Source: Mesorhizobium loti | Lineage (GTDB): Bacteria > Pseudomonadota > Alphaproteobacteria > Rhizobiales > Rhizobiaceae | Length of the DNA: 64,000 bases | NCBI RefSeq assembly: GCF_001510895.1 | Contig: NZ_LPWA01000090.1 | Coordinates: forward strand, 62,001-126,000 | Reading direction: 5' to 3' | Part shown: one piece after another, positions 19,013-36,899 of the stretch | Layout of the letters: every line of letters starts with the position of its first letter | Position numbering within the stretch: position 1 is the first letter of the stretch | Notes under the pieces: generated by a model | Databases searched by the model: none | What the model was told of the DNA's origin: nothing | Seen by the model: only the letters and a program-made list of their open reading frames with translations | Made by a program: the position numbers and the translations under genes

Positions 19013-20049
19013 CTACCTGTTGATGGCCCCCTGGAATCTCTCAATCCTGGAGAAAATGTCGTCGAATGAAGGCGGGGTGTCATCGAACATCATCGGCGCC
19101 ATTGCCCGATAATCCGCTCTGAGATCGTTGATCCGCGCTTCGCTTGGCATCAGCGCAAAGTGCCTGGGCGCGCCGTACCGTAGTTGGCCCAGCCTGAGCG
19201 AAAGAACGTCGCCTTGTGCTTTGCCACGGTTGCCAGCAGCTCGAGATCAGCGGCGGCGGCCTTTCCCTCGACGGAGTCGAGCATCATGGCGAGGTCGTAG
19301 TAGTGGCGCGAGAAATATTTCGGGGTCGCCGACTCTGCCGGACGATGGGCTTCGGCGTGCAATGCGGTGGCTTTTTCCCAAAAGGTACGCCGTGCAGACA
19401 GGACCGTGACGGTCGTATCCGGGTCTTCGAAGAAATCGGGAAAATCCTCGGCCGCGTAGGGGCGAATGACTTTCTTCTCGGCGGGCCAAGGATCGCCGCG
19501 GGCGCCGAGCTCAAGCCTAACTCGCGGCGTAATGTACGCCATGCCTCGATACTCGGCCGTCGGAAGCGCGGCCGGGTAGTGGAAGTTCAGCGTCTGCGCG
19601 TCGGCTTCATCGATCACTAACGACCACTCGTCATGCTGCGGTTCGCCGAGCTCTTGGACGATCGCGGCACGAAGGGCGGGAAGCAGCCTGTCGGCGATAT
19701 GCTTCTCGACATCTCCCACCAGGTCGTCGATGAGTTGACCTGACTTTTTTCGGCTCACGCCCTCCTTTTCTGGATCGCGATCACCTGTGTAGCCGAGATC
19801 TGCCCTGTCGAAGGACAAATCGATGTCCTCGGAGAAACGACGGATAATGCCAAAGGCCTTGGACAGGGACGTTCCGCCTTTGAAGACCAGGCTGGCTGCG
19901 GCGTCCTCCGGAAGATCGAACAATCGTTTCAAGGTCCAGCAAACCCAGAAGTCCTTCTCGATGATCGTGTTGGCGACGCCGCGCCCGGCGCCGGTTTCGC
20001 CAAAGAGCGCCGCTCGATCACTTGCCGAAAGAAGGGCTACCTTATCCAT
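19013..20049 (-). pseudogene. abiEii: AbiEii-type nucleotidyltransferase toxin, frameshifted near its C-terminus
   Basis: Frame 1 gives 299 residues of an AbiEii/AbiGii toxin: motif I KGGTSLSKAF with the downstream acidic pair EDIDLSFD (about 58-80), then K/Y/D residues near KYFSRHYYDLAMML. It stops at 19150 after GTLR. In the next frame the expected tail continues (MPSEARINDLRADYRAM to a stop at 19013). Restoring one base near 19151 gives an exact 345-residue protein. AbiE toxins are nucleotidyltransferases that modify tRNA or use GTP and cause bacteriostasis. The active-site half is intact, so the truncated product might retain some activity. The gene overlaps abiEi by 8 bp. Confidence 0.85.
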
Positions 20050-20671
20050 TTGCGGCGTTCGACGCTGCGTTGCCGATCGAGATCAGCGTCGGACGCATCC
20101 AGGCGGGAGCCTGAACCACGTTGGAAGCGAGTAGTCTCTTGTCACTCGCCGAGAGCCGACGCGCGGCGAGCTGGGTCACGTCGGAGGCCCGCCCCGGCCC
20201 GACATGGCGAAGAGCTTGGACAACGGTTCCGGCAAGGCTGCCCGGCGCGATCAGATGCTTGGGGGAAGCGTGACGCAGATCGACCACGCGCTTGCCCAGC
20301 ACGACACGGCGAGAAGGCCCGTCCGTCAGATAAAGGCTCTTTGCGGGCACCTGCGTCGAGAGGCCGAGCGCATTGGCTGCGTGCGCGCCGGCGATCTGTG
20401 CTTTTGAACCAGTCTCCCGCGCGAGCGCACGCGCGACGTCGTCGGGGGCCGGCGAAAGCTGACCCAGCTTCGGATGCACCCTCGGATAGTCATAGAGGCC
20501 ACGCGCCAAGCGGCGCAACTTTCCGCTCTTGACCAAGCGTGAGAGGGCCTGATCGACAGCAGCACGCCCGGCCACGTCGAGGAAGTCGCTAGGCGTGAAA
20601 ACACCGCCACGCCCACCGGCGCGGGCGCGGTGCATGACTCGATCGGGAACTGATGTAATGGCCGTTTTCAT
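20042..20671 (-). CDS. abiEi: AbiEi-type antitoxin/transcriptional regulator
   Basis: A 209-residue antitoxin. The N-terminal winged-helix part contains FTPSDFLDVAGRAAVDQALS and LARGLYDYPR (about 25-65). The C-terminal half resembles the AbiEi_4/DUF6088-type antitoxin domain. It is a type IV antitoxin that lets the cell survive AbiEii and represses its own operon through inverted repeats. The start at 20671 leaves a single base between the codon and a perfect inverted repeat, so either the transcript is leaderless or the true start is the internal ATG at residue 13. Confidence 0.87.
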   Translation of the reverse strand: MKTAITSVPDRVMHRARAGGRGGVFTPSDFLDVAGRAAVDQALSRLVKSGKLRRLARGLYDYPRVHPKLGQLSPAPDDVARALARETGSKAQIAGAHAANALGLSTQVPAKSLYLTDGPSRRVVLGKRVVDLRHASPKHLIAPGSLAGTVVQALRHVGPGRASDVTQLAARRLSASDKRLLASNVVQAPAWMRPTLISIGNAASNAANG

Positions 20672-20823: not shown

Positions 20824-22299
20824 CTACTTGCCTCTATCTGTCCCCTGGCACGGCTGTCTAGCTTTTAGATGGTTGGCTATTCGGTTAGCAAGCCACACGA
20901 GATAGGGACGTCGTGACCCTTGTTCCTTTTCATCGCGCTCATGCGAGGCCTTCCGCAGCAGCGCCACAGCGATCGCGTTCATATACTCGCCCTGCGTCTT
21001 CTCGTCCCCCAACCCAACCCGGCGGATCTGCCGCACCGTATCCCATAGCTCACTTAGAGGGCTTGTGGGTGTTCTAGGCGCCGGGACGGAGGACAAAGCA
21101 TCGGGCGCGTAGAGCGCGGTCATGGTCTCCTGCCAGTCCTTCTCGGCCGCCACCGCGTGAAAGGCCAAAGACACCTCTAGATGCGCAGGGTCTGATACCA
21201 GCGGAGCCGTAGTGACCGCGGCAAAATCGATGAGAATGGCCTGGCCCCCTAGCCTTACCCGAACGTTGTTGCCATGGAGATCGCCATGGGAGAGTGCAAC
21301 CATGTGGGAGGTGGCAGGCAAGGTATCCAGCATTTGGGCGATCGCATCTGGCGCTGCAACCGGACCGATCTTGGCCGCTTCCTTCGCGTAACCAAATAGC
21401 CTTCCATTGGCAGGTTTGTTGTAAAGAGCCCCACCCATGGATTGGCTGACAGGGCGTTGCACCATCATCCCATAGCCTCCGTGATGCGCCTGCCAACGCC
21501 AGCCGCGCAGTGCATCCTCAAACAGGGAATTTATAGCCGAGTGGCCTCGACCGGTCTCCACAACAGCCGAGAGCGGCTCCGATTGCTCGACAAAGTTGCC
21601 CACAATCAGTCCGTATTCAGCCCCCAGCACGCAGCGTGCCTCGTCGATGTTCGGCCGCGCGTAGAATGGGACAAAAAGTGTCGTGCATTCACGATAGTTC
21701 GTGAGTTCGCGTTCTATCTTGGTGCGTCGATCCAGTTTGGCAAAGAATGGCAAAGGGTAAGCACCGGCTCGCGAGTCGGCGAGCTCGGCGTGCGCCAGAA
21801 AGACGGTCGCGCTGCGGCCGCCCTCCAGACGTTTTAGATGGACGCGGGTGCAATCGAAAAAGGCGCGCCTCAGCAAGATGATCTGCTCGCTGTTGAGGGT
21901 TTGCGCCCCCTCAATGGCGACCAAATGTGAAAAGTCTGGGCCAGGTTCAAACCGCGCACAAGATTCGCAGAACTCGCGCAGGTGCTCGGCCGCATCGAGC
22001 TTTTCGGCGCGGAAGAATTGCGTTTTGACCGCAGTCTGCACCTCGCCAAGATTTTCAAGCGGGGCGATCACCCTCACCATCAAGCCATGTCGCAGGGCCT
22101 GGTCGATAAGGCGCTCTTTGGCGATGGAAAGGACAGGATCGCCCGCCGAAGCGCAGGAAATGACGAGGACGCGCGCATTAGCCAGCGCCTCAACGGCCGT
22201 TTCGGCGCTGCGCTTGTCAAGTTGCAACCACCGTTCAATGAGCTGGCGCTCGATCTCAGGCGTCGGGCCGTCGCCGACCCAAATGATCCTGTTTCGCAT
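20824..22299 (-). CDS. Kinase-fold (APH-like) protein at the end of the ubiquitin-like operon
   Basis: A 491-residue protein with two parts. Residues 1-110 look like an alpha/beta Rossmann-type domain (RIIWVGDG at the start, ARVLVISCASAGD, HGLMVRVIAP), perhaps receiver- or TIR-like. Residues about 130-460 show an aminoglycoside-phosphotransferase/kinase fold: a loop GGRSATVFLA (160-169), candidate ATP-binding Lys188 in FFAKLD, catalytic loop HGDLHGNN (338-345) and metal-binding Asp358 in LIDFA. The start at 22299 is chosen because it lies 8 bp after the Ubl gene stop. As last gene of the operon it is a candidate effector or regulator of the conjugation system. The exact family is uncertain. 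Confidence 0.7.
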   Translation of the reverse strand: MRNRIIWVGDGPTPEIERQLIERWLQLDKRSAETAVEALANARVLVISCASAGDPVLSIAKERLIDQALRHGLMVRVIAPLENLGEVQTAVKTQFFRAEKLDAAEHLREFCESCARFEPGPDFSHLVAIEGAQTLNSEQIILLRRAFFDCTRVHLKRLEGGRSATVFLAHAELADSRAGAYPLPFFAKLDRRTKIERELTNYRECTTLFVPFYARPNIDEARCVLGAEYGLIVGNFVEQSEPLSAVVETGRGHSAINSLFEDALRGWRWQAHHGGYGMMVQRPVSQSMGGALYNKPANGRLFGYAKEAAKIGPVAAPDAIAQMLDTLPATSHMVALSHGDLHGNNVRVRLGGQAILIDFAAVTTAPLVSDPAHLEVSLAFHAVAAEKDWQETMTALYAPDALSSVPAPRTPTSPLSELWDTVRQIRRVGLGDEKTQGEYMNAIAVALLRKASHERDEKEQGSRRPYLVWLANRIANHLKARQPCQGTDRGK

Positions 22300-22306
22300 T
22301 GCAGCT

Positions 22307-22543
22307 TCACCCGAACGACGTCTGCGGGCGACTGAAGACATGGGTAACGTCAGAGGAGAGTTCGATGCGCTCATCAGGCGCAAGCACGCGATCGGCCCCG
22401 CCACTCACCTCCAAAATTAGGTCATCTTCTGGCGACAGGTTCGCTAGCGTGCGGATCTGCAATTGCGAAAGATGGGCAACAGCGACCTCAAAAGCCTGCC
22501 CGTTGATCACGACGGTACGTTTCGGCCGCTCACTCACTCCCAT
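22307..22543 (-). CDS. Second ubiquitin-like protein (multiubiquitin-family Ubl)
   Basis: A 78-residue protein resembling a beta-grasp ubiquitin-like domain of the bacterial 'multiubiquitin' type: a strand with VVINGQAFEV, a central acidic segment PEDDLILEVSGGADRVL, and an ending VFSRPQTSFG. That ending mirrors the FFSRPPTNFGG of the other Ubl in this operon but stops after a single glycine, with no GG. It may therefore be pre-processed, a decoy, or a non-conjugated regulatory Ubl. It overlaps the DUF6527 gene by 10 bp, so it is translationally coupled. Confidence 0.72.
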   Translation of the reverse strand: MGVSERPKRTVVINGQAFEVAVAHLSQLQIRTLANLSPEDDLILEVSGGADRVLAPDERIELSSDVTHVFSRPQTSFG

Positions 22544-23076
22544 TCAAGACGCCCTTCGCTCGGCTGTTCCGCTCCCGCGCGATAGAGAACAAAATCCCTC
22601 TGGATCGCCTTGCCGTTGGCGACGAGAACACGACACGCCCACGCGACATCCCATGGATTTTCATCAAGCGCTTCTGCCACTTGCTCATAGTGTACAAAAA
22701 GACTCGAATGTTCTAGCAAATGGTCGAAAACGCGGTTCGCAAGGGCCTGATCCGCCGGATCTGGCCCCTCACGCCAATCGCACCACAGAATCTGGTCGCG
22801 CCAAACTATGAAATGCGCACGACACCCGCTATCGCGCCAGACCGATGGATATACAGTGAGGTTGCCGTGACGACGATCCAATCGCCATGCCTTGCCGGAC
22901 CGGCGGTCAAGATTGATCGTCAGCACATCGCCACACCCGTCCGGACAGGCCATAACCAACGCCCGCTCAACGCCGCGTCGATCGACGACGACATCTCCGG
23001 GTTTTTCTAAAAGACTCTGAGCTCGATTATGTCCCTCTGCTTCGCCGAGTAGCCTCAATTTGCGGGCGCGCGTCAT
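22534..23076 (-). CDS. DUF6527 family protein of the ubiquitin-like operon
   Basis: A 180-residue protein. Its core CPDGCGDVLTINL (about 44-56), then YPSVWRDSGCRAHFIV (about 76-91), matches the conserved pattern of DUF6527: a CxxxCG zinc-ribbon-like element, then P-S-x-W-x3-GC-x-(S/A)-H-F. DUF6527 proteins are regularly encoded beside bacterial ubiquitin-like, E1 and E2 genes; their role is not established and a substrate- or Ubl-binding zinc adaptor is possible. It overlaps the E1 gene by 4 bp and the second Ubl gene by 10 bp. Confidence 0.75.
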   Translation of the reverse strand: MTRARKLRLLGEAEGHNRAQSLLEKPGDVVVDRRGVERALVMACPDGCGDVLTINLDRRSGKAWRLDRRHGNLTVYPSVWRDSGCRAHFIVWRDQILWCDWREGPDPADQALANRVFDHLLEHSSLFVHYEQVAEALDENPWDVAWACRVLVANGKAIQRDFVLYRAGAEQPSEGRLEWE

Positions 23077-24401
23077 TCCGGTCGGCCAGGCAATGGAGCC
23101 CTATCACCCACCCCCAAGGTCGAATCTGGACCACAGAAGGGGCAGTCAGGGTTCGCCGTTACCGCCAGTGCATTCATGCGGCCGCGCACGGCATCATAGG
23201 CAAGATATCGCGGACGCGAGGGGATACCCGCGACTGCCGATAGAAACATAGTGATTGCCAATGAAGCGGTCGTGCCATTGAGGCTAATGACGGCCGGTTG
23301 TTCAACGCCGGCTCCATTCTCAAAATAGGGATCGGAGGTACGCTGCTCTTCCGTCATGAGTTCCTCGCGAATGCGATGCGCATTCAAATGGTTGGAGCAC
23401 CATAGGCAAGGCAAATTGGGTGCCAACATCTGCACATGGGAGCCGATCGTAGTTTGATCCCCCGAGGCGCCGATGGCAACGCCGAGGTCAATGGCTGGAA
23501 TGAGATACTGGTAAGCAAGCTGATTTATTGTGTGGCGGCTGGCGTGCGTGTCCGTGCAGCAAAAAATGAAATCGGTACGCGAAAGCCGTCGGGCAACCGA
23601 CCGCGTCGTGATGTCACCAGCAATGGCCACAACGTCCGCGTCAGAGCGGATATGCCGTATCATACATTCAGCTATTGCTACCTTTGCCTGCCCCACATCC
23701 GCTGGCGTTGCTCCAACCACCCGGTTCAGATTGCTGATTTCTATTTCGTCTGGGTCGATGAGCAAAAACCTTTGAATGCCCAGGTGAGCCAGTTGCTGGG
23801 CTACAATCGAGCCGGTGCCGCCAAGCCCGACAATGCCGACCTGCAAGGCAGCGATGCGTTGCTGACCGTCTTTCCCAAAGGCCCGAATCTGACGATCGAA
23901 ACGGTCGGTGTCGGGTTGCTGGGAATCTTCCGTTGCCGCGACAAGGTTTGCGCCAATTTCAAGCACGCGCACCGGCTGGGCCGAACCGAGTACGCGGCAG
24001 CGTGCCGGTGCATCCTTTGGAAAGAGGAGCGCCATGTGAGGCACACCCGGGCATCGCCAGCTTAGATATTCGGCGAGCTTGGCCTCTGTCGCATCATCTT
24101 CGAAGGAAAAGTCTGGATGCCCAACCGTCGGATGCGTGTGGACATAGACCAGCGAAAGCCCACTTTGTTTTGCTGCCTTTTCGATCGGCAGGCAGAATTT
24201 CGGATCCAGGCTGACCCGCACCGCCGACCGTTCCAGATAGTCCTGATCAGATGCAACAAAGGCTTTTTTGACGAGGATACGCGCCTGTGCGCCCTCCAAG
24301 ACAGGTTCGCATAGAAGGATTGCCGCGCTCTCCAGCGTTGCGTCATCAAGCGCTGCACGCAGGTCAGATAAAGCCGGTGCTGCGAAGGCAAGCGCAATCA
24401 T
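23073..24401 (-). CDS. Fused JAB/JAMM protease-E1 (ThiF-type) activating enzyme
   Basis: A 442-residue fusion. Residues 1-150 form a JAB/JAMM metalloprotease with VHTHP (His88, His90), Ser99 and Asp102 in the H-x-H...S-x2-D arrangement. Residues about 165-430 form a ThiF/E1 adenylyltransferase: RFDRQIRAFG, nucleotide loop GIVGLGGTGS (189-198), LIDPDEIEISNLNR, CCTDTHASR, and a CLWC...CPFC zinc site. The E1 part would adenylate the C-terminus of a Ubl; the JAB part would trim the Ubl tail or remove it from targets. Having both in one chain is typical of a subset of bacterial ubiquitin-like (Bil/Bub-type) operons. It overlaps both neighbours by 4 bp. Confidence 0.9.
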   Translation of the reverse strand: MIALAFAAPALSDLRAALDDATLESAAILLCEPVLEGAQARILVKKAFVASDQDYLERSAVRVSLDPKFCLPIEKAAKQSGLSLVYVHTHPTVGHPDFSFEDDATEAKLAEYLSWRCPGVPHMALLFPKDAPARCRVLGSAQPVRVLEIGANLVAATEDSQQPDTDRFDRQIRAFGKDGQQRIAALQVGIVGLGGTGSIVAQQLAHLGIQRFLLIDPDEIEISNLNRVVGATPADVGQAKVAIAECMIRHIRSDADVVAIAGDITTRSVARRLSRTDFIFCCTDTHASRHTINQLAYQYLIPAIDLGVAIGASGDQTTIGSHVQMLAPNLPCLWCSNHLNAHRIREELMTEEQRTSDPYFENGAGVEQPAVISLNGTTASLAITMFLSAVAGIPSRPRYLAYDAVRGRMNALAVTANPDCPFCGPDSTLGVGDRAPLPGRPE

Positions 24402-24793
24402 ACAACCTTCCCAAGCCTGTCGAGGATGATTGAAACATATGTGGCCAGTTTGTCACGCGCCGGATTCCATTGCTTCTGGGCATCCGTCACGTGCCATGAG
24501 AACCACAAGGCTTCGATTGGCGTCTCAGGAATCGTCTGCATCTGCGCTGCTTGGGGAATGGCACCGCCGGCCAGTCGCAGCTTGCCCTCGACCCAGAAGC
24601 AATCGGGACATGGGCCGGGATATCCAACCGGAATCACAAACCAGATCGTTGTCTCAGCAAGCGACCATCCGTCCGCGAGCGGGACATTCGGCAGCGTGAC
24701 GAGGATCGCTGTGGATGGCAGCTCTTGGTAGGCTGCCTCCGGAAATCGCTCCCTTACACGTTCGATCTCCTTGAGCGTGATCGGGGAAATCAA
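24398..24793 (-). CDS. E2/UBC-like protein
   Basis: A 131-residue protein like the bacterial E2 group usually annotated 'E2/UBC family protein': a central IPVGYPGPCPDCFWV (54-68), then RLAGGAIPQA, and a C-terminal W-x-S-W-H with NPARDKLATYVSIILDRL. Eukaryotic E2s place the catalytic cysteine just before the last helices, but here that position has WFSWH and no cysteine. The only cysteines are Cys62 and Cys65 in PCPDC. Either one of these is the acceptor or the protein is a non-catalytic E2 adaptor. It sits between the Ubl and the E1, overlapping each by 4 bp. Confidence 0.8.
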   Translation of the reverse strand: MISPITLKEIERVRERFPEAAYQELPSTAILVTLPNVPLADGWSLAETTIWFVIPVGYPGPCPDCFWVEGKLRLAGGAIPQAAQMQTIPETPIEALWFSWHVTDAQKQWNPARDKLATYVSIILDRLGKVV

Positions 24794-25050
24794 GCGCGGC
24801 CGCCGAAATTCGTCGGGGGGCGTGAAAAGAATTGCTTGGGGCCGCCATGCTTGTGGGAGAGGTCGACCGACTGGTCATCGGTGATGACCTGATCGGCGTC
24901 GTTCCCACGACCCTCGAGCACGAGATCCTGGCTAGGGTCGAAAGCCGGCACCAACGTTTTTATCGCAGCCTTGATCTGCGCGCCGGTCATAAATTCCTGG
25001 TCGGAATCGACTTTGGTGTCGCCGTAGCGAAATTCGTATTTGCCTGACAT
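24790..25050 (-). CDS. Ubiquitin-like protein with GG-containing tail (multiubiquitin family)
   Basis: An 86-residue beta-grasp Ubl and first gene of the operon. It ends FFSRPPTNFGGRA, with the diglycine at residues 83-84 and two further residues, so exposure of GG would need proteolysis, presumably by the JAB domain of the co-encoded E1 fusion. The acidic middle (DLVLEGRGNDADQVITDDQ) is typical of the family. The start at 25050 has GAGGGCTCC upstream; a longer in-frame extension to 25188 lacks family character. It overlaps the E2 gene by 4 bp. Confidence 0.8.
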   Translation of the reverse strand: MSGKYEFRYGDTKVDSDQEFMTGAQIKAAIKTLVPAFDPSQDLVLEGRGNDADQVITDDQSVDLSHKHGGPKQFFSRPPTNFGGRA

Positions 25051-28730: not shown

Positions 28731-30111
28731 TCACGCCGGTTTCGGCATCGGCACCGGGATCAGCTTGGCGAGTTTCCGGAGGTTCTGGGCGGCGGCTGCC
28801 AGGTGGAACTCGTCTCGGGCGCCATTCGGTCCCCGTAGTCGCAAGCGATCCAGCTTCAGGATGCGCTTGAGGTGGGCAAACAGCATCTCGACCTTCTTCC
28901 TCTCGCGACGCGAGGTGACATAGGCGTCGGTGGCGGCAATATCGCGGGCCATGTCCCGCGCACCCTCGTGGATAGAGCGCAAGATCTTGCGGGCTGGACC
29001 GTTCGGACAGCATCGAGGCTTGAGGGCGCAGGCGTCGCAGTCGAGCTTGCTGGCGCGGTAGCGCATGAAGCCCTCGTCGTCGACACCGTCGCGGGGTGAA
29101 GCGAACCGCCGACGATACTGCCTGAGCTCCTTGCCGCCTGGACAGGTGTAGAGATCGCGCTTGCGATCATAGCTGAACTCTGCCCGCTCGAAGGTCCCAT
29201 CGCGACGCTCCGACTTGTCGAAGACCGGGATATGCGGCTCGATCCCGCGCTCGTGCACCAACCAGCCCAACATCTCGGCCGAGCCGTACGCGCTGTCGGC
29301 GGCCAGGCGTTCCGGATAGAGGCCGAAGCGATCCTGGGCGCGATCGATCATGGTGCGTGCCGCGCCGACTTCCGCCTGGCGTATGGCGCGGCTTGCCTCG
29401 ACGTCCACGATGACGGCGTGATCCAGGTCGATCAGATAGTTGGTGGCGTAGGCGAAGAAGGCATGCCCCTTCATCGCTCCCGTCCACTGAGCCGCCGGGT
29501 CGGACCTCGATATGAACTTCGGCTTCACCTCGCTCGCTGCACCCCACGCGGCATCGTCCAACGTGTCGAGATACTCCTGTACCGAGCGGCGTGTTGCCGC
29601 CATCGTCTCCCAGTCGACCTGCTCCGATCCCTCGGCAGAGCGCTGCTTGTTCGCGTCCGCCTGATGAGGCTGGCATCGACGGCGAAGCCTCGTTGCCGAC
29701 GAGACCTTCTTCGATGCAACGGCGCACCGTCGTCTCGAAGAGTTCGCGCAGCAGATCACTGTCGCGAAAGCGGCCGTGTCGGTTCTTGGAGAAAGTGGAA
29801 TGGTCCGGGACATCACCCTCCAGGCCAAGCCGGCAAAACCAGCGATAGGCGAGATTCAGATGCACTTCCTCGCAGAGCCGGCGCTCGGAGCGGATGCCGA
29901 AGCAGTAGCCGACGATCAGCATCCGGATCATTAGCTCCGGATCGATCGAGGGTCGGCCGATCTCGCTGTAGAACGGCCGCAGATGCGAGCGCAGTTCGGA
30001 CAGGTCGACGAACCGATCAATCGAGCGAAGCAGATGGTCTGATGGCACATGACGTTCGATGCTGAACTCGTAGAACAGCGCTTCCTGCATCATGGTCCGC
30101 TCGCCCATCAT
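28731..30111 (-). pseudogene. IS1182-family DDE transposase with two frame breaks
   Basis: The N-terminal frame (from ATG 30111: EFSIERHVPSDHLLRSID, later VPDHSTFSKNRHGRF) carries the transposase DUF772-type region. It shifts near 29688 and again near 29660, where FAVDASLIR and then ADANKQRS should follow. The C-terminal frame contains the DDE core (VDVEASRAIRQAEVGAARTM, AADSAYGSAEML) and the cysteine-rich region CDACALKPRCCP. Adding one G at each break, both beside G pairs, gives an intact 460-residue transposase. As written it cannot be made without frameshifting. Confidence 0.88.
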
Positions 30112-30505: not shown

Positions 30506-31060
30506 CTAGCGCGCTTCTATCCTCAGCGCAGTCAGCGTCTCCGGCGTGATCGTCCCGGTGACCTTCAGCGAGTAGTCCGCCTGCATGCGCAGCAGCCCCG
30601 CCCTCAATTCAGGATTCATCTCGCCGTCTATCTCGCCGCTGTAGTAGCCGAATGCGAGTAGGGCGAACTGGACCTCCTGGACGATCTCCTTGAACTTGTA
30701 GGCATTGCCCGGGAGCGTCTTGAGCGGCGCAGGCGTTGGGGCGATCGTGGGCGCTTGGTAAGTCGGCGCAGGTGTTGAAGGCGCGCTGTACAAGGGGGCT
30801 GGTTCGCTCGGCGTCGGCGGGACGTAAGAATAGCCGCCCGTCGACGACCTATGGCTGGAGTGCGAGCTATGGCTGCTATGACTGCTGTGGCTGCGATGTC
30901 CGGCCAGTGTGTACAGGTGGTCGAGCTTGAAGATATCGAAGAGAGACTTCGTCTTTCCAAGATCGCCGTCCAACGTTGGCTTTGTCGGCAGTGCCTGCGC
31001 ATTGGCTGGCAGGAAACCCGCCACGAGCAGCGACGGAATCGCGAAGAGCCGCTTCTTCAT
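30506..31060 (-). CDS. hxsA: HxsA: exported His-Xaa-Ser repeat protein, probable modification substrate
   Basis: A 184-residue protein. Residues 1-23 are a signal peptide (cleavage about ANAQA). Residues 55-72 are six consecutive His-Xaa-Ser triplets (HRS, four HSS, HRS). A proline-rich linker (80-115) follows, and the C-terminal part (about 120-180, GYYSGEIDGEMNPELRAGL) resembles a peptidoglycan-binding fold. The HXS array is the presumed site of post-translational modification by the two radical-SAM enzymes encoded upstream. It is last in the operon, overlapping hxsC by 4 bp. Confidence 0.9.
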   Translation of the reverse strand: MKKRLFAIPSLLVAGFLPANAQALPTKPTLDGDLGKTKSLFDIFKLDHLYTLAGHRSHSSHSSHSSHSSHRSSTGGYSYVPPTPSEPAPLYSAPSTPAPTYQAPTIAPTPAPLKTLPGNAYKFKEIVQEVQFALLAFGYYSGEIDGEMNPELRAGLLRMQADYSLKVTGTITPETLTALRIEAR

Positions 31061-32166
31061 TGGATAGCTCCCAAATTGCTGTATCCGTGGCTAGCTGGGT
31101 GCCACTCGAAAAATCCCCCGCACTCAGCCTTCAACTTGCATCCACCGCATTCGCCTCGGTAGGCGCGTTTCCAGTCGGAAATCGTGGCAGGCGCCAGGTG
31201 GCGATATCTTTCCGGGACAGTGCAGAGCGGAAAATTGTAGAGCCAGGCATCTATCCCCCGGCCTCTGACGAGATCGATGGAACGGCCGACGACGTCGAAG
31301 CCCTCCGAACTGTCGTAGAAGAGCGTCTTCCAATTCATGCGGCCGAAGCCGATGTTCTCCATCTGCATGATTGCCCATGTCCGGATGAACGGCAGCGTGG
31401 AGGCGATGAACCTCGCCAGTCGAGGCAGCCCATCTGCATTCGGACGCATTAGCACGGTGCGGAGTTCTACTTGGGAGCCCAGGCGGCACATGAGCGCCAG
31501 GTTCTCCAACAGCTGTTCGAGCGCGCCGGCCTTCCCGACGATCTTGTCATGAACGGCCGGATCGCGGGAATAGAGCGGGATACCCCAGACCACCCTTCCC
31601 CGATCAATACGTCTTATCGCCTCGCAATCATCCGGATCAAAATGCTGACCATTGGTCAGGACGTGGAACGATAGGTCAGCGCGAGCGTCCAGAACCCTCC
31701 CCAGGAACGCTAGCAGTTGGCCTTTGAAAAGCATCGGCTCTCCGCCGGAAATCCCGATCGTTGCCCCTTCCGGAGCAAGCAACGCGGCGGTCTCAAAATA
31801 CGGAAATAGGTCGACGTGGTGCTTCTTGGGCGGCTGGGAGCACATCAGGCAAACCTGATCGCACCGCTCCGTCACCAGGAAGGTGTTGTGCGGCGACGAA
31901 CTGCGGATGAGGCGGTCCGCGGTTCCACGCCGCGGGTTCACGAGCAGCACGTCTCCATCGACCTTGGACGGATCGATGCCAAGAATTCGTATCGGTCCGC
32001 CCGCGCCGACATAGTGGGCGCCTTCCGGGCCGACGCGCTCCAGCGCGGCGTCGAAAGGATTCAGTTGGTCAGTCCTTTGTTCGCGGGCATCGGCCTCAAA
32101 CGAGCGAAGCCGGACCACGAAAGGCTGGTCAGCGTTTGCCTCCACCTTGATGCGCAAGGGTATCAT
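31057..32166 (-). CDS. hxsC: HxsC: radical SAM maturase of the His-Xaa-Ser system
   Basis: A 369-residue radical SAM enzyme. The iron-sulfur motif CDQVCLMC (Cys102, 106, 109) sits unusually far in, after a 100-residue N-terminal domain, and is followed by the SAM-binding GISGGEPML. The C-terminus has extra cysteines (CGGCKLKAEC) suggesting an auxiliary cluster. The start at 32166 gives a 4-bp overlap with hxsB; an upstream extension would only copy the hxsB sequence in another frame. HxsB and HxsC occur together and are thought to modify HxsA; the chemistry is unknown. Confidence 0.9.
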   Translation of the reverse strand: MIPLRIKVEANADQPFVVRLRSFEADAREQRTDQLNPFDAALERVGPEGAHYVGAGGPIRILGIDPSKVDGDVLLVNPRRGTADRLIRSSSPHNTFLVTERCDQVCLMCSQPPKKHHVDLFPYFETAALLAPEGATIGISGGEPMLFKGQLLAFLGRVLDARADLSFHVLTNGQHFDPDDCEAIRRIDRGRVVWGIPLYSRDPAVHDKIVGKAGALEQLLENLALMCRLGSQVELRTVLMRPNADGLPRLARFIASTLPFIRTWAIMQMENIGFGRMNWKTLFYDSSEGFDVVGRSIDLVRGRGIDAWLYNFPLCTVPERYRHLAPATISDWKRAYRGECGGCKLKAECGGFFEWHPASHGYSNLGAIQ

Positions 32167-33572
32167 TGGTGCGTGGGCGCCATGTTGTCGTCCCAGCCGC
32201 CCACGCCGAGCCAGGCTGCCAGCGAGGCACGGGCAGGTTCGTCCTTGCGGTAAAGGACCTCGAATACCTTGTCGAACAGCGACAAATGCCGGCCGCAAAA
32301 CCATGTGTCCGGCCGCGGGACATCGATCCGGCCATACCGGGAGATGTCGTCGATCACGTCAGTGCCGCAGAACGCCTGGTAGGCGCAGTGAAGGCACTCC
32401 GGATCGAAGTGGTTGAATGCACCGGAATTGAGAACGTCGACCTTTGCCCGATCGATTCCTGTCCCGACATCGCCAATGCTGAGATCGATATGGCCGATCC
32501 TGGACAGCATCCGAGCTTCATCGGTCGGATAGAAGCGGCCGTCGTGATCTATGACGACATAGTCGGAGGCGAAGAAGTTCGGGTTCCGAATGTCGACGTG
32601 GCTGTCGGCATCGAAGCGGAGCGCTCGCTTCAAGCACTGGCTGAAGTAGTACTCTTCCATGAAGCGCCCGGTCCGATGGTTGCGGGCGATGAGACAGTCG
32701 ATGAATTCGGCATGGAGCCGATTCCAGCGCGCGAGGACATTGTCGCCTTGCTGGATCTTTCTGGCGAATCCCTGGTGGTTTATCGGGCGCAGATAGACGG
32801 ACCGGATTCCATAGCGCTCATAGTTGTCCAGCAGCGTGTTGAAATCCGGCGGGTTGGCCACATCAACCGTGGGAAGGGCCGAGATCTTCCCCTCCGGATA
32901 GCGGGAAACCGCTGCCTCGAGATTTCGAAAGAAGGCATCGGTGACTTCGCTGCCGTGGGTCCGCTGACTCTCATGCGTCGCCCGGTCTCCGTCAAGCGAC
33001 GTACTGATGAATGTGTCATCGGCATCCAGGAAGGCCCAGGCACGCTCGTCCAGTGCTTGCAGGTTCGTGCAGACGACGAATTGAGACCGGGGAAACTTTC
33101 CGCGGCAGAAGTCCCGAACGGCTTCCAGAAGATCGACCCGAAGCAAGGGCTCGCCACCCTGGAACTCGATCTTGATATCTGGACCGTCCAAGCGGTCGAG
33201 GAACGAAAGGACACCGGCGAGGGTCTCGTCCGACCAGTCGAATCCACGAGCTTTCTCGGCAGCCCGGGAGACCTGGCAATAACCGCAGATGAGATTGCAC
33301 CTCAGCGTCGGCACGAGGATGACGTAGTTCATTCTCGTCGGCCTCGCCTGCCGCCGCGCCCACTTATAGGCGAACGATGTCCACCGAAGGTCGAACTCCC
33401 GATCGAATCCGTGGTTCCCTTCGGTGAGGAACGATACGTCGACGGTAGTTAGGTTATCGGCGGCGTATCGATCCAAGAAGTCGTGGCTTGACTTGAAGAA
33501 TCCGCCTGCGTCGTCGCAGAACAATACCGAACCGTCCGACATCTCGCGGAACTTCAGCGGCCAGACGCTCAT
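32163..33572 (-). CDS. hxsB: HxsB: radical SAM maturase with SPASM-like C-terminus
   Basis: A 469-residue protein. The radical SAM core begins TLRCNLICGYC (Cys92, 96, 99), followed by FQGGEPLLR. A C-terminal cysteine set, CLHCAYQAFCGTD (about 388-400), then WFCGRHL (about 419-425), matches a SPASM/twitch-type auxiliary-cluster domain found in peptide-modifying enzymes. It overlaps hxsD and hxsC by 4 bp each. With HxsC it is expected to install a modification, possibly a crosslink, on the HXS repeat protein. Confidence 0.92.
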   Translation of the reverse strand: MSVWPLKFREMSDGSVLFCDDAGGFFKSSHDFLDRYAADNLTTVDVSFLTEGNHGFDREFDLRWTSFAYKWARRQARPTRMNYVILVPTLRCNLICGYCQVSRAAEKARGFDWSDETLAGVLSFLDRLDGPDIKIEFQGGEPLLRVDLLEAVRDFCRGKFPRSQFVVCTNLQALDERAWAFLDADDTFISTSLDGDRATHESQRTHGSEVTDAFFRNLEAAVSRYPEGKISALPTVDVANPPDFNTLLDNYERYGIRSVYLRPINHQGFARKIQQGDNVLARWNRLHAEFIDCLIARNHRTGRFMEEYYFSQCLKRALRFDADSHVDIRNPNFFASDYVVIDHDGRFYPTDEARMLSRIGHIDLSIGDVGTGIDRAKVDVLNSGAFNHFDPECLHCAYQAFCGTDVIDDISRYGRIDVPRPDTWFCGRHLSLFDKVFEVLYRKDEPARASLAAWLGVGGWDDNMAPTHQ

Positions 33573-33835
33573 CGGCTTGTGACCGCAGCGACGAGCGCTT
33601 GGCGCATGGTCAGAGTTTCGGCGTAGATTTTCTCACGGTAGATAGCGTGCAAAACATCTTTGCGAAACCGCTCTTCGGTGAGGTCGCTCGAACCGCGTAT
33701 TGATATCCCACCCTCGCGGCGGGCGAACCGGCACGCAGGGTAAAGTGCCTGAAGGCGAAGCATCGCCGAATTGACGTGCTTTTCAAATTGTGGCGAAACA
33801 TCCACCACGAACTCTAGTTCAACAGCTTTAGGCAA
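33569..33835 (-). CDS. hxsD: HxsD: small His-Xaa-Ser system protein
   Basis: An 88-residue protein (ELEFVVDVSPQFEKH, later RFRKDVLHAIYREKIYAETL), first in the hxsDBCA operon. Identification rests on position and size and on the beta-strand/alpha-helix pattern that recalls a peptide-recognition domain such as PqqD, though that is inference. Translation appears to start at TTG 33835; no ATG is available nearby. The 3' end overlaps hxsB by 4 bp. Confidence 0.75.
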   Translation of the reverse strand: MPKAVELEFVVDVSPQFEKHVNSAMLRLQALYPACRFARREGGISIRGSSDLTEERFRKDVLHAIYREKIYAETLTMRQALVAAVTSR

Positions 33836-35796: not shown

Positions 35797-36899
35797 ATGG
35801 CAACTGCTGAGACCTTCTATGACGTCATTCGCCGCCAGGGGATCACACGGCGCAGTTTCACCAAGTTCTGCAGCCTGACGGCCGCGAGCCTGGGTTTGCC
35901 GGGAGCGGCGACAGCCGTGGCCGAGGCACTCGAGACGAAGGAGCGCGTGCCCGTTATCTGGATGCACGGGCTCGAATGCACCTGCTGTTCGGAGAGCTTC
36001 ATCCGCTCGGCCCACCCGCTGGTGAAGGACGTCGTCCTGTCGATGATCTCGCTCGACTACGACGACACGATCATGGCGGCGGCCGGCCATCAGGCGGAAG
36101 CCATCCTCGAAGAGACCAGGCAGAAGTACAAGGGCAAGTACATTCTCGCGGTGGAAGGCAATGCGCCGCTCAACGAGAACGGCATGTTCTGCATCGACGG
36201 CGGCCGACCTTTCGTCGAGAAGCTTAAATGGATGGCTGAGCACGCGACGGCGGTCATCGCCTGGGGCACTTGCGCCTCCTGGGGCTGCGTGCAGGCGGCC
36301 AAACCCAACCCGACCCAGGCGACGCCGATCGACAAGGTCATCCTTGACAAGCCGATCATCAAGCTCCCGGGCTGTCCGCCGATCGCCGAGGCGATGACGG
36401 GCGTCGTCACCTTCATCACCACCTTCGGCAAGCTGCCCGATCTCGACCGGCAGAGCCGGCCGAAGATGTTCTATTCGCAGCGCATCCACGATAAGTGCTA
36501 TCGCCGCCCGCATTTCGACGCCGGCCAGTTCGTCGAAGAATGGGATGACGAGGGCGCGCGCAAGGGCCACTGTCTCTATAAGATGGGCTGCAAGGGGCCC
36601 ACCACCTACAACGCGTGCTCCGCCGTGCGGTGGAACGGCGGGGTCTCCTTCCCGATCCAGTCGGGCCACGGCTGCATCGGCTGCTCGGAAGACGGTTTCT
36701 GGGACAATGGCAGCTTCTATGACCGGCTGACCAGCATCCATCGGTTCGGCATCGAGGCGAATGCCGACAAGGTCGGCATGGCCGCGGCCGGCATCGTGGG
36801 CGGCGCGATCGCCGCGCACGTGGCGGTGAGCGCCGTCAAGCGCGTGACCACAAAGCGCGAAAAGCCGACACTTGAACACACCGGGAATCAATCACCATA

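Follow-up and report, generated by a model that had tools for sequence, protein, structure and literature searches.

A minimal hxsDBCA cluster of Mesorhizobium loti that probably modifies the His-Xaa-Ser units of a wall-bound protein

The DNA analyzed here is a stretch of 64,000 nucleotides of Mesorhizobium loti (contig NZ_LPWA01000090.1, positions 62,001 to 126,000), referred to below as the window. It carries on the minus strand, from 33835 to 30506, four intact genes, hxsD, hxsB, hxsC, and hxsA, joined by three junctions that are each a 4-bp overlap. The cluster is a true minimal D-B-C-A member of the already known Hxs (His-Xaa-Ser) type, and the system probably modifies chemically the HXS units of a wall-bound protein, HxsA. 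An earlier note on the window had described a complete and intact cluster with these overlaps, and the gene calls and NCBIfam scores agree with it. HxsB scores 383.6 bits against the equivalog model TIGR03978 (cut-off 370), HxsC 304.9 bits against the equivalog model TIGR03977 (cut-off 267.9), and HxsA 159.7 bits against the HXS repeat model TIGR03979 (cut-off 121.65). The start of hxsC is taken as the ATG at 32166, which gives the 4-bp overlap and agrees with the annotated hxsC starts of other loci; the first start in the list of open reading frames is at 32304. Between 30100 and 34500 no sigma-70-like promoter was found, and there are 5 terminator-like sites as compared with 3.8 expected. 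The genes are as follows.

33569 to 33835, minus strand: hxsD, 88 amino acids, TTG start; small partner protein, predicted beta-alpha-beta-beta-alpha
32163 to 33572, minus strand: hxsB, 469 amino acids; radical S-adenosylmethionine (SAM)/SPASM maturase with an N-terminal domain resembling a RiPP recognition element (RRE; RiPP, ribosomally synthesized and post-translationally modified peptide)
31057 to 32166, minus strand: hxsC, 369 amino acids; second radical SAM maturase
30506 to 31060, minus strand: hxsA, 184 amino acids; exported substrate

Hxs systems were reportedly described by Haft and Basu in 2011. In the accessible parts of three papers, HxsB and HxsC appear as annotated similarity-network clusters with the motif credited to Haft and Basu (PMC9062424), hxs genes are listed for Pseudomonas aeruginosa (PMC8446631), and a His-Xaa-Ser system is placed at a variable site of Vibrio parahaemolyticus (PMC6537148). 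No description of an Hxs product or function was found in the open-licence literature searched; a term search of PMC12710340 did not return the word Hxs, and the accessible portions of PMC9055067 and PMC6405878 contain nothing on it.

The substrate, HxsA, combines a signal-peptide-like N terminus, an HXS array, and a wall-type domain. The array of (HRS)(HSS)4(HRS) at residues 55–72 is as the earlier note gave it, and its reading of HxsA as an exported protein with a peptidoglycan-binding-like end is also borne out. HxsA of the window contains no cysteine. Its features are as follows.

30992 to 31060, minus strand: signal peptide, HxsA residues 1–23, with the cut after AQA judged by eye; also the proposed leader
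30899 to 30919, minus strand: H-x-Y-T-L-A-G element, HxsA residues 48–54, conserved and immediately before the array
30845 to 30898, minus strand: HXS array of six units, HxsA residues 55–72, HRS HSS HSS HSS HSS HRS
30524 to 30685, minus strand: PG_binding_1 domain, HxsA residues 126–179, Pfam E 2e-12

For comparison 106 hxs loci were gathered, 93 of which have a window-type HxsA. Twelve loci (L084–L088, L090, and L093–L098) were dropped as repeats before counting, and the 106 still include at least one repeat (L067 repeats L039) and several near-identical strains. Arrays were located by a search for H-x-S, and the invariance of His and Ser within them is therefore partly by construction. The codons for the third-position serines of the window array are, in order, AGC, AGT, AGC, TCG, AGC, and TCG, and 101 of the 103 distinct array DNA sequences mix AGY and TCN codons at this position. 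Such mixing suggests that serine is kept by selection on the protein and that the array is not a recently copied DNA repeat. The number of units varies from 3 to 8 across the 103 distinct arrays (second arrays counted), which favors an additive role over one fixed cofactor. Two arrays are present in HxsA of 11 sphingomonad loci (L128, L130, L138, L142, L143, L145, L146, L149, L159, L162, and L163), where the second begins with HYS and ends with HRS, and also in L206. A second Mesorhizobium class (L063–L067) has a short HxsA with a C-terminal array that is followed only by GYSYC or a similar sequence.

The claim of two distinct radical SAM maturases is upheld by the full set of cluster ligands in each. 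Cysteines 92, 96, 99, 393, 396, 402, and 426 of HxsB and cysteines 102, 106, 109, 315, 340, 343, and 349 of HxsC are invariant, each in an alignment of 11 sequences that includes the window. The elements concerned are as follows.

33348 to 33572, minus strand: HxsB residues 1–75, strand-strand-strand-helix-helix-helix, RRE-like topology (DSSP of the model); the 5why_B alignment begins at residue 4
33276 to 33299, minus strand: HxsB CxxxCxxC, residues 92–99 (C92, C96, C99)
32295 to 32396, minus strand: HxsB SPASM-type cysteines C393, C396, C402, and C426, placed by alignment
31840 to 31863, minus strand: HxsC CxxxCxxC, residues 102–109 (C102, C106, C109)

The AlphaFold2 model of HxsB (39 sequences; predicted local distance difference test, pLDDT, 90.3) comprises a β3-α3 N terminus (strands 7–10, 16–19, and 25–28; helices 30–37, 43–51, and 62–74) followed by the radical SAM and SPASM domains. 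It superimposes on 5why_B over residues 4–442 (Z 27.7, 385 residues aligned, root-mean-square deviation (rmsd) 3.6), tied with the anaerobic sulfatase-maturating enzyme (anSME) 4k38_B, which aligns over residues 80–457 (Z 28.1, 345 residues aligned, rmsd 3.2); ChlB is next at Z 26.8. Among solved chains the best profile match is 4k36, also an anSME (E 2.3e-13), followed closely by 5wgg and 9gm3. We take 5wgg and 5why to be CteB, a sactipeptide maturase with an RRE, and presume the name RRE for the N terminus of HxsB from its topology. As modeled, HxsB joins an RRE-like domain to radical SAM and SPASM domains, the arrangement of RRE-bearing maturases.

HxsD scores only 16.2 bits against TIGR03976 (cut-off 50), and few alphaproteobacterial HxsD match this model (3 of 35, even at E≤1). 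Profile-profile comparison with seven other HxsD aligns 43 columns at the C-terminal end with a probability of 89% (E 2.3e-6), and the position of the gene is the same in relatives. The protein is thus HxsD-type by sequence homology and gene position rather than by curated score. Its model (35 sequences, pLDDT 91.1) is β-α-β-β-α; there is no PDB match at E≤0.001 and, by sequence, no solved structure at E≤1, and the best VIA match (the FMRP N-terminal domain, Z 7.6) lies within background. The possibility that HxsD is the RRE was rejected on this topology, which is not β3-α3. Since the N terminus of HxsB does have the β3-α3 arrangement, the RRE-like part appears to reside in HxsB, and HxsD to be something else.

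The N terminus of HxsA is conserved to an extent that suggests a second role. Mean pairwise identity is 0.55 for residues 1–22, 0.66 for the hydrophobic core (residues 5–18), and 0.55 for the wall-binding domain among 48 of 95 HxsA that share <80% identity (<95% in the matched set c8). Start codons were chosen by rule, a choice on which the result for residues 5–18 depends little. Shuffling residues within each sequence reduces the identity of residues 5–18 from 0.656 to 0.133 (S.D. 0.003, 50 shuffles). For comparison, the loci also encode five further families of exported or membrane-anchored proteins (5 to 13 non-redundant members each); identity in these is 0.24–0.35 in the first 22 residues as compared with 0.40–0.57 in the rest, and in matched locus sets the HxsA signal peptide (0.51–0.87) is far above the N termini of partners. 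An ordinary signal peptide requires hydrophobicity and not a particular sequence; conservation of the sequence itself is therefore the pattern expected of a recognition sequence. On this pattern, the signal peptide of HxsA probably doubles as a leader for the maturases.

The gene content, the catalytic ligands, the signal-peptide-like N terminus and its conservation, the wall-type domain, the predicted folds, and the partners found in relatives (see below) are direct observations. From them we infer the leader role, the reaction, the order of events, and the function, as follows. HxsA would be made in the cytoplasm with its conserved signal peptide also serving as leader, which the RRE-like domain of HxsB would hold, probably with the help of HxsD. 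HxsB and HxsC would then act on the H-x-S units by radical SAM chemistry in the cytoplasm, most likely by abstracting hydrogen at Cβ of serine and bonding that carbon to the histidine imidazole at i−2. The result would be a three-residue cyclophane, with a mass shift of about −2 Da per unit and of no more than about −12 Da over the six units. The accessible text of PMC11002830 describes radical SAM links between C2(His) and Cβ of Ala at i+2 (HaaB), C2(His) and Cβ of Arg at i+2 (YhhB), and C4(Phe) and Cβ of Ser at i+2 (MscB). Since His and Ser are each known as cyclophane ends, a His-x-Ser cyclophane is the simplest guess. The modified HxsA would be exported by the ordinary Sec route and its leader removed by signal peptidase, so that no dedicated protease or transporter would be needed, and the C-terminal PG_binding_1 domain would hold it at the peptidoglycan. 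There the effect of the arrays would be additive, that of a rod buffering metal or redox state in the periplasm rather than that of one fixed cofactor. The suggestion in the earlier note of RiPP-type cell-wall chemistry is plausible. The whole account of leader-guided cytoplasmic modification, Sec export, wall anchoring, and an additive buffering role, taken jointly with the assignment of the window to an alphaproteobacterial-type Hxs system, is our best explanation but a tentative one, falling somewhat short of an even chance. The leader idea makes the Hxs system directly testable, and the signal-peptide result and the map of partners make such testing easier.

Relatives carry lineage-specific partners after hxsA, none of which, among those that recur, was seen at the window cluster. 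Most of the locus stretches cover less than 26 kb, and the cluster sometimes lies close to a stretch end, so that the partner counts are lower bounds; genes in the other loci were called with a simple caller that may miss or mis-start them, and clusters of neighbors (ClpP-like, PP2C, and others) were named by eye or from record annotation unless scanned. A two-gene unit lies 3' of hxsA, always on the same strand, in 19 of the 93 loci with window-type HxsA. In L107, the sole representative scanned, its products match TIGR03982 (87 bits, cut-off 40) and the MauG-like TIGR03981 (395 bits, cut-off 340), both labeled Hxs-associated by NCBIfam; the remaining loci were assigned by clustering. L123 has a longer, second MauG-like protein (245 bits). 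An exported protein, ClpP-like by eye but with no Pfam match, follows hxsA within 25 bp in 13 Rhizobium loci. A co-directional VWA-PP2C-kinase triad follows within ∼50 bp in eight loci (L040, L042, L119, L122, L127, L134, L140, and L160) and is inverted nearby in four rhizobial loci (L034, L109, L124, and L125); an SH3_3 protein accompanies the triad in 11 of the 12 loci and is present without the triad in L108, L113, and L131. On the other side of the cluster, an exported protein of ∼390 residues directly precedes hxsD in 13 rhizobial loci. Twelve sphingomonad loci have, divergently upstream, a family of ∼200 residues, and HxsA carries a second array in 11 of the twelve. The two-gene unit apart, scanned representatives of the partners (PP2C left out) did not match the NCBIfam models that name Hxs. 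The MauG-like unit and the exported ClpP-like protein favor a periplasmic setting.

Several results weigh against the proposed mechanism. The MauG-like partner is absent beside the window hxsA, and no TIGR03981 match above cut-off was found in its own genome (93% complete; best 79.1 of 340 bits). Among the recurring neighbors that could be named there is no metal-homeostasis family (many clusters are unnamed), which leaves a metal role without support from context. Three of four matched locus sets show lower identity in the HxsA signal peptide than in the wall-binding domain (0.51/0.66, 0.58/0.66, and 0.75/0.83; the fourth set, 0.87/0.86), and the signal-peptide sequence is not clearly common to most of the beta- and gammaproteobacterial HxsA seen, which limits the leader claim to the alphaproteobacterial clade. 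Finally, HxsB scores nearer to the thioether (ranthipeptide/sactipeptide-type) maturase PapB (74 bits) than to the triceptide-type YhhB (45 of 445 bits) and FxsB (37.1 of 370), although all of these scores are far under the cut-offs of those models.

The main rival to a cyclophane is oxidation of serine, which gives the same mass shift. HxsB and HxsC would oxidize the serines (formylglycine-like, as anSME does) or modify single residues without a His cross-link. Such enzymes oxidize Ser or Cys of exported sulfatases, and anSME chains are the top structural match of the HxsB model, tied with 5why_B, and its top profile match among solved chains. The anSME alignment, however, leaves out the N-terminal domain that 5why_B matches, and oxidation does not explain why His is paired with every Ser at i+2; we regard this reading as unlikely. 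HxsA might instead carry a redox cofactor made from its own residues and finished by a periplasmic di-heme enzyme, in the manner of MauG and tryptophan tryptophylquinone (TTQ), with the minimal cluster of the window as a reduced or differently finished version. The same-strand MauG-like genes after hxsA, named from L107, and the NCBIfam short name of TIGR03981, 'SAM_quin_mod', speak for it. The unit was not seen in 74 of the 93 loci (some stretches end soon after hxsA), the genome of the window lacks an above-cut-off match, and a variable number of units is unsuited to one fixed cofactor; we consider a TTQ-like cofactor quite unlikely.

Two further explanations turn on the neighborhood. In one, Hxs is a mobile defense or competition module whose modified wall protein guards against phages or rivals. 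It draws on the occurrence of hxs on conjugative plasmids and one Leptospira phage, on the AbiE pair and bacterial ubiquitin-like operon in the window, and on CBASS E1-E2 genes, which adjoin hxs in 5 of 23 window-type Mesorhizobium/Aminobacter loci as compared with 0 of 16 control stretches. These controls are random positions rather than matched accessory DNA, however, and the five loci do not all count as independent, since L033 and L061 have the same arrangement; of 146 same-genus genomes just 5 have a Cap2 of this CBASS type (E≤1e-30), in a single case at hxs, and shared islands alone could account for the association. General enrichment of defense genes near hxs was not shown by the PADLOC scan, which gave 121 families from 149 hxs neighbors (the nearest of 199 candidates, those touching stretch ends kept) as compared with 35 from 138 controls (150 drawn from 252, 12 left out, of which 11 touch a stretch end and one does not). 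CBASS leads near hxs when the hits are pooled, but the controls include Wadjet-type matches (JetA, JetC, and JetD). In other lineages, where the PADLOC scan was not applied, no defense family recurs among the clusters that could be named, and overall a defense role is improbable. In the other explanation, Hxs serves hydrogenase assembly or nickel handling. The earlier note had given weight to the neighboring hydrogenase operon, a divergent hup/hyp operon upstream whose small subunit gene, on the strand opposite to hxsD and ∼2 kb away from it, begins at 35797. The comparison does not support that weight: the link is not conserved, HupL having been seen near hxs in 1 of 106 loci, the window itself. 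Of 146 same-genus genomes, 21 have HupL; hxsB is above cut-off in five of the 21 (G000, G006, G007, G117, and G133), and only in G000, the genome of the window, were the two seen together (1 of 21). They are 3.6 Mb apart in G117 and on different contigs in G006, G007, and G133, in G007 both near contig ends. The hydrogenase link was rejected on these counts; the comparison comes close to refuting it, a hydrogenase role is extremely improbable, and the hydrogenase genes beside the window hxs appear unrelated to it.

The distribution of hxs is that of an accessory module, often on mobile DNA, as indicated by its patchy presence in genomes and its occurrence on plasmids and phage. HxsB is above cut-off in 21 of 146 same-genus genomes and falls into two classes, one of 605–617 bits in five genomes and the window class of ∼376–406 bits; weaker matches in all 146 and in all 14 control genomes are presumably other radical SAM enzymes. 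Of 398 genomes sampled across the phylum, 13 have an HxsA above cut-off. HxsB matches 435 plasmid records at E≤1e-5, of which 333 are typed as conjugative and 393 are matched along 80% or more of HxsB (318 Klebsiella, 32 Rhizobium, 26 Agrobacterium, and others). In the one Klebsiella record viewed (L036), hxsDBCA lies on a conjugative plasmid beside an IS1 element and near resistance genes, and a Leptospira phage record (L043) has an annotated cluster of hxsA, hxsD, hxsB, and hxsC. Apparently decayed copies with a split hxsB or hxsA (L058, L061, L062, and L207) suggest repeated loss. In the window, a DDE transposase gene, apparently split into two frames, lies downstream of hxsA (28731–30111).

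The defense genes mentioned above are arranged as follows. In the window, AbiEii toxin and AbiEi antitoxin genes are at 19150–20635 (PADLOC E 3.7e-90 and 7.8e-66), and a TCAD9/APH-like protein (20824–22299) adjoins the ubiquitin-like operon at 22307–25050. This operon encodes two Multi_ubiq proteins (one below the Pfam cut-off), DUF6527, a ThiF-type E1 whose JAB part is just below cut-off, and Prok-E2_E. CBASS beside hxs takes differing arrangements of patatin, DncV-like synthase, E1-E2, and JAB genes in L031, L032, L033, L052, and L061 (Mesorhizobium and Aminobacter); the contig of L052 shows just the E1-E2 and JAB genes before it ends.

Compared with Hxs systems as defined by NCBIfam (TIGR03976–TIGR03979), the window has HxsA, HxsB, and HxsC above the curated cut-offs, the D, B, C, and A genes together, the HXS array, and the PG_binding_1 end; it differs in an HxsD too diverged for TIGR03976 and in that no MauG-like or TIGR03982 partner was seen. 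CteB-type maturases (5wgg/5why) share the fold of HxsB over nearly its whole length, N-terminal domain included, but the PDB title refers to thioether bonds in sactipeptides, whereas HxsA of the window is cysteine-free. With the triceptide maturases HaaB, YhhB, and MscB the proposed chemistry would share an aromatic residue at i, an acceptor at i+2, and His and Ser as known ends (PMC11002830, in the part accessible); the Hxs system differs from them in scores of HxsB far below the YhhB and FxsB cut-offs, an exported wall-binding substrate, and a second radical SAM enzyme, and it is not counted among them. PMC12452194 describes bufferins as periplasmic copper-binding RiPPs whose precursors bear Sec signal peptides, and reports preliminary evidence for the signal peptide belonging to the recognition sequence. 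A Sec signal peptide on the precursor, perhaps part of recognition, and a periplasmic product are common to both, but bufferins use an MNIO enzyme and cysteine chemistry, and the likeness is one of export logic only. By this analogy Hxs systems might correspond to bufferins made with radical SAM chemistry: protein-sized products led by a signal peptide, in which His-x-Ser cyclophanes form a row anchored to the wall, their number tuned in the way of a buffer, and to which each lineage adds modules. We consider this reading doubtful. If it were true, Sec and signal peptidase would replace the dedicated RiPP exporter and protease, and the modules would be a di-heme oxidase, an exported ClpP-like protein, or a phosphorylation triad according to lineage. 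Should the leader idea prove right, Hxs would add to the few RiPPs that leave the cell by general export, with modified histidines displayed on the cell wall as a genetically encoded ladder.

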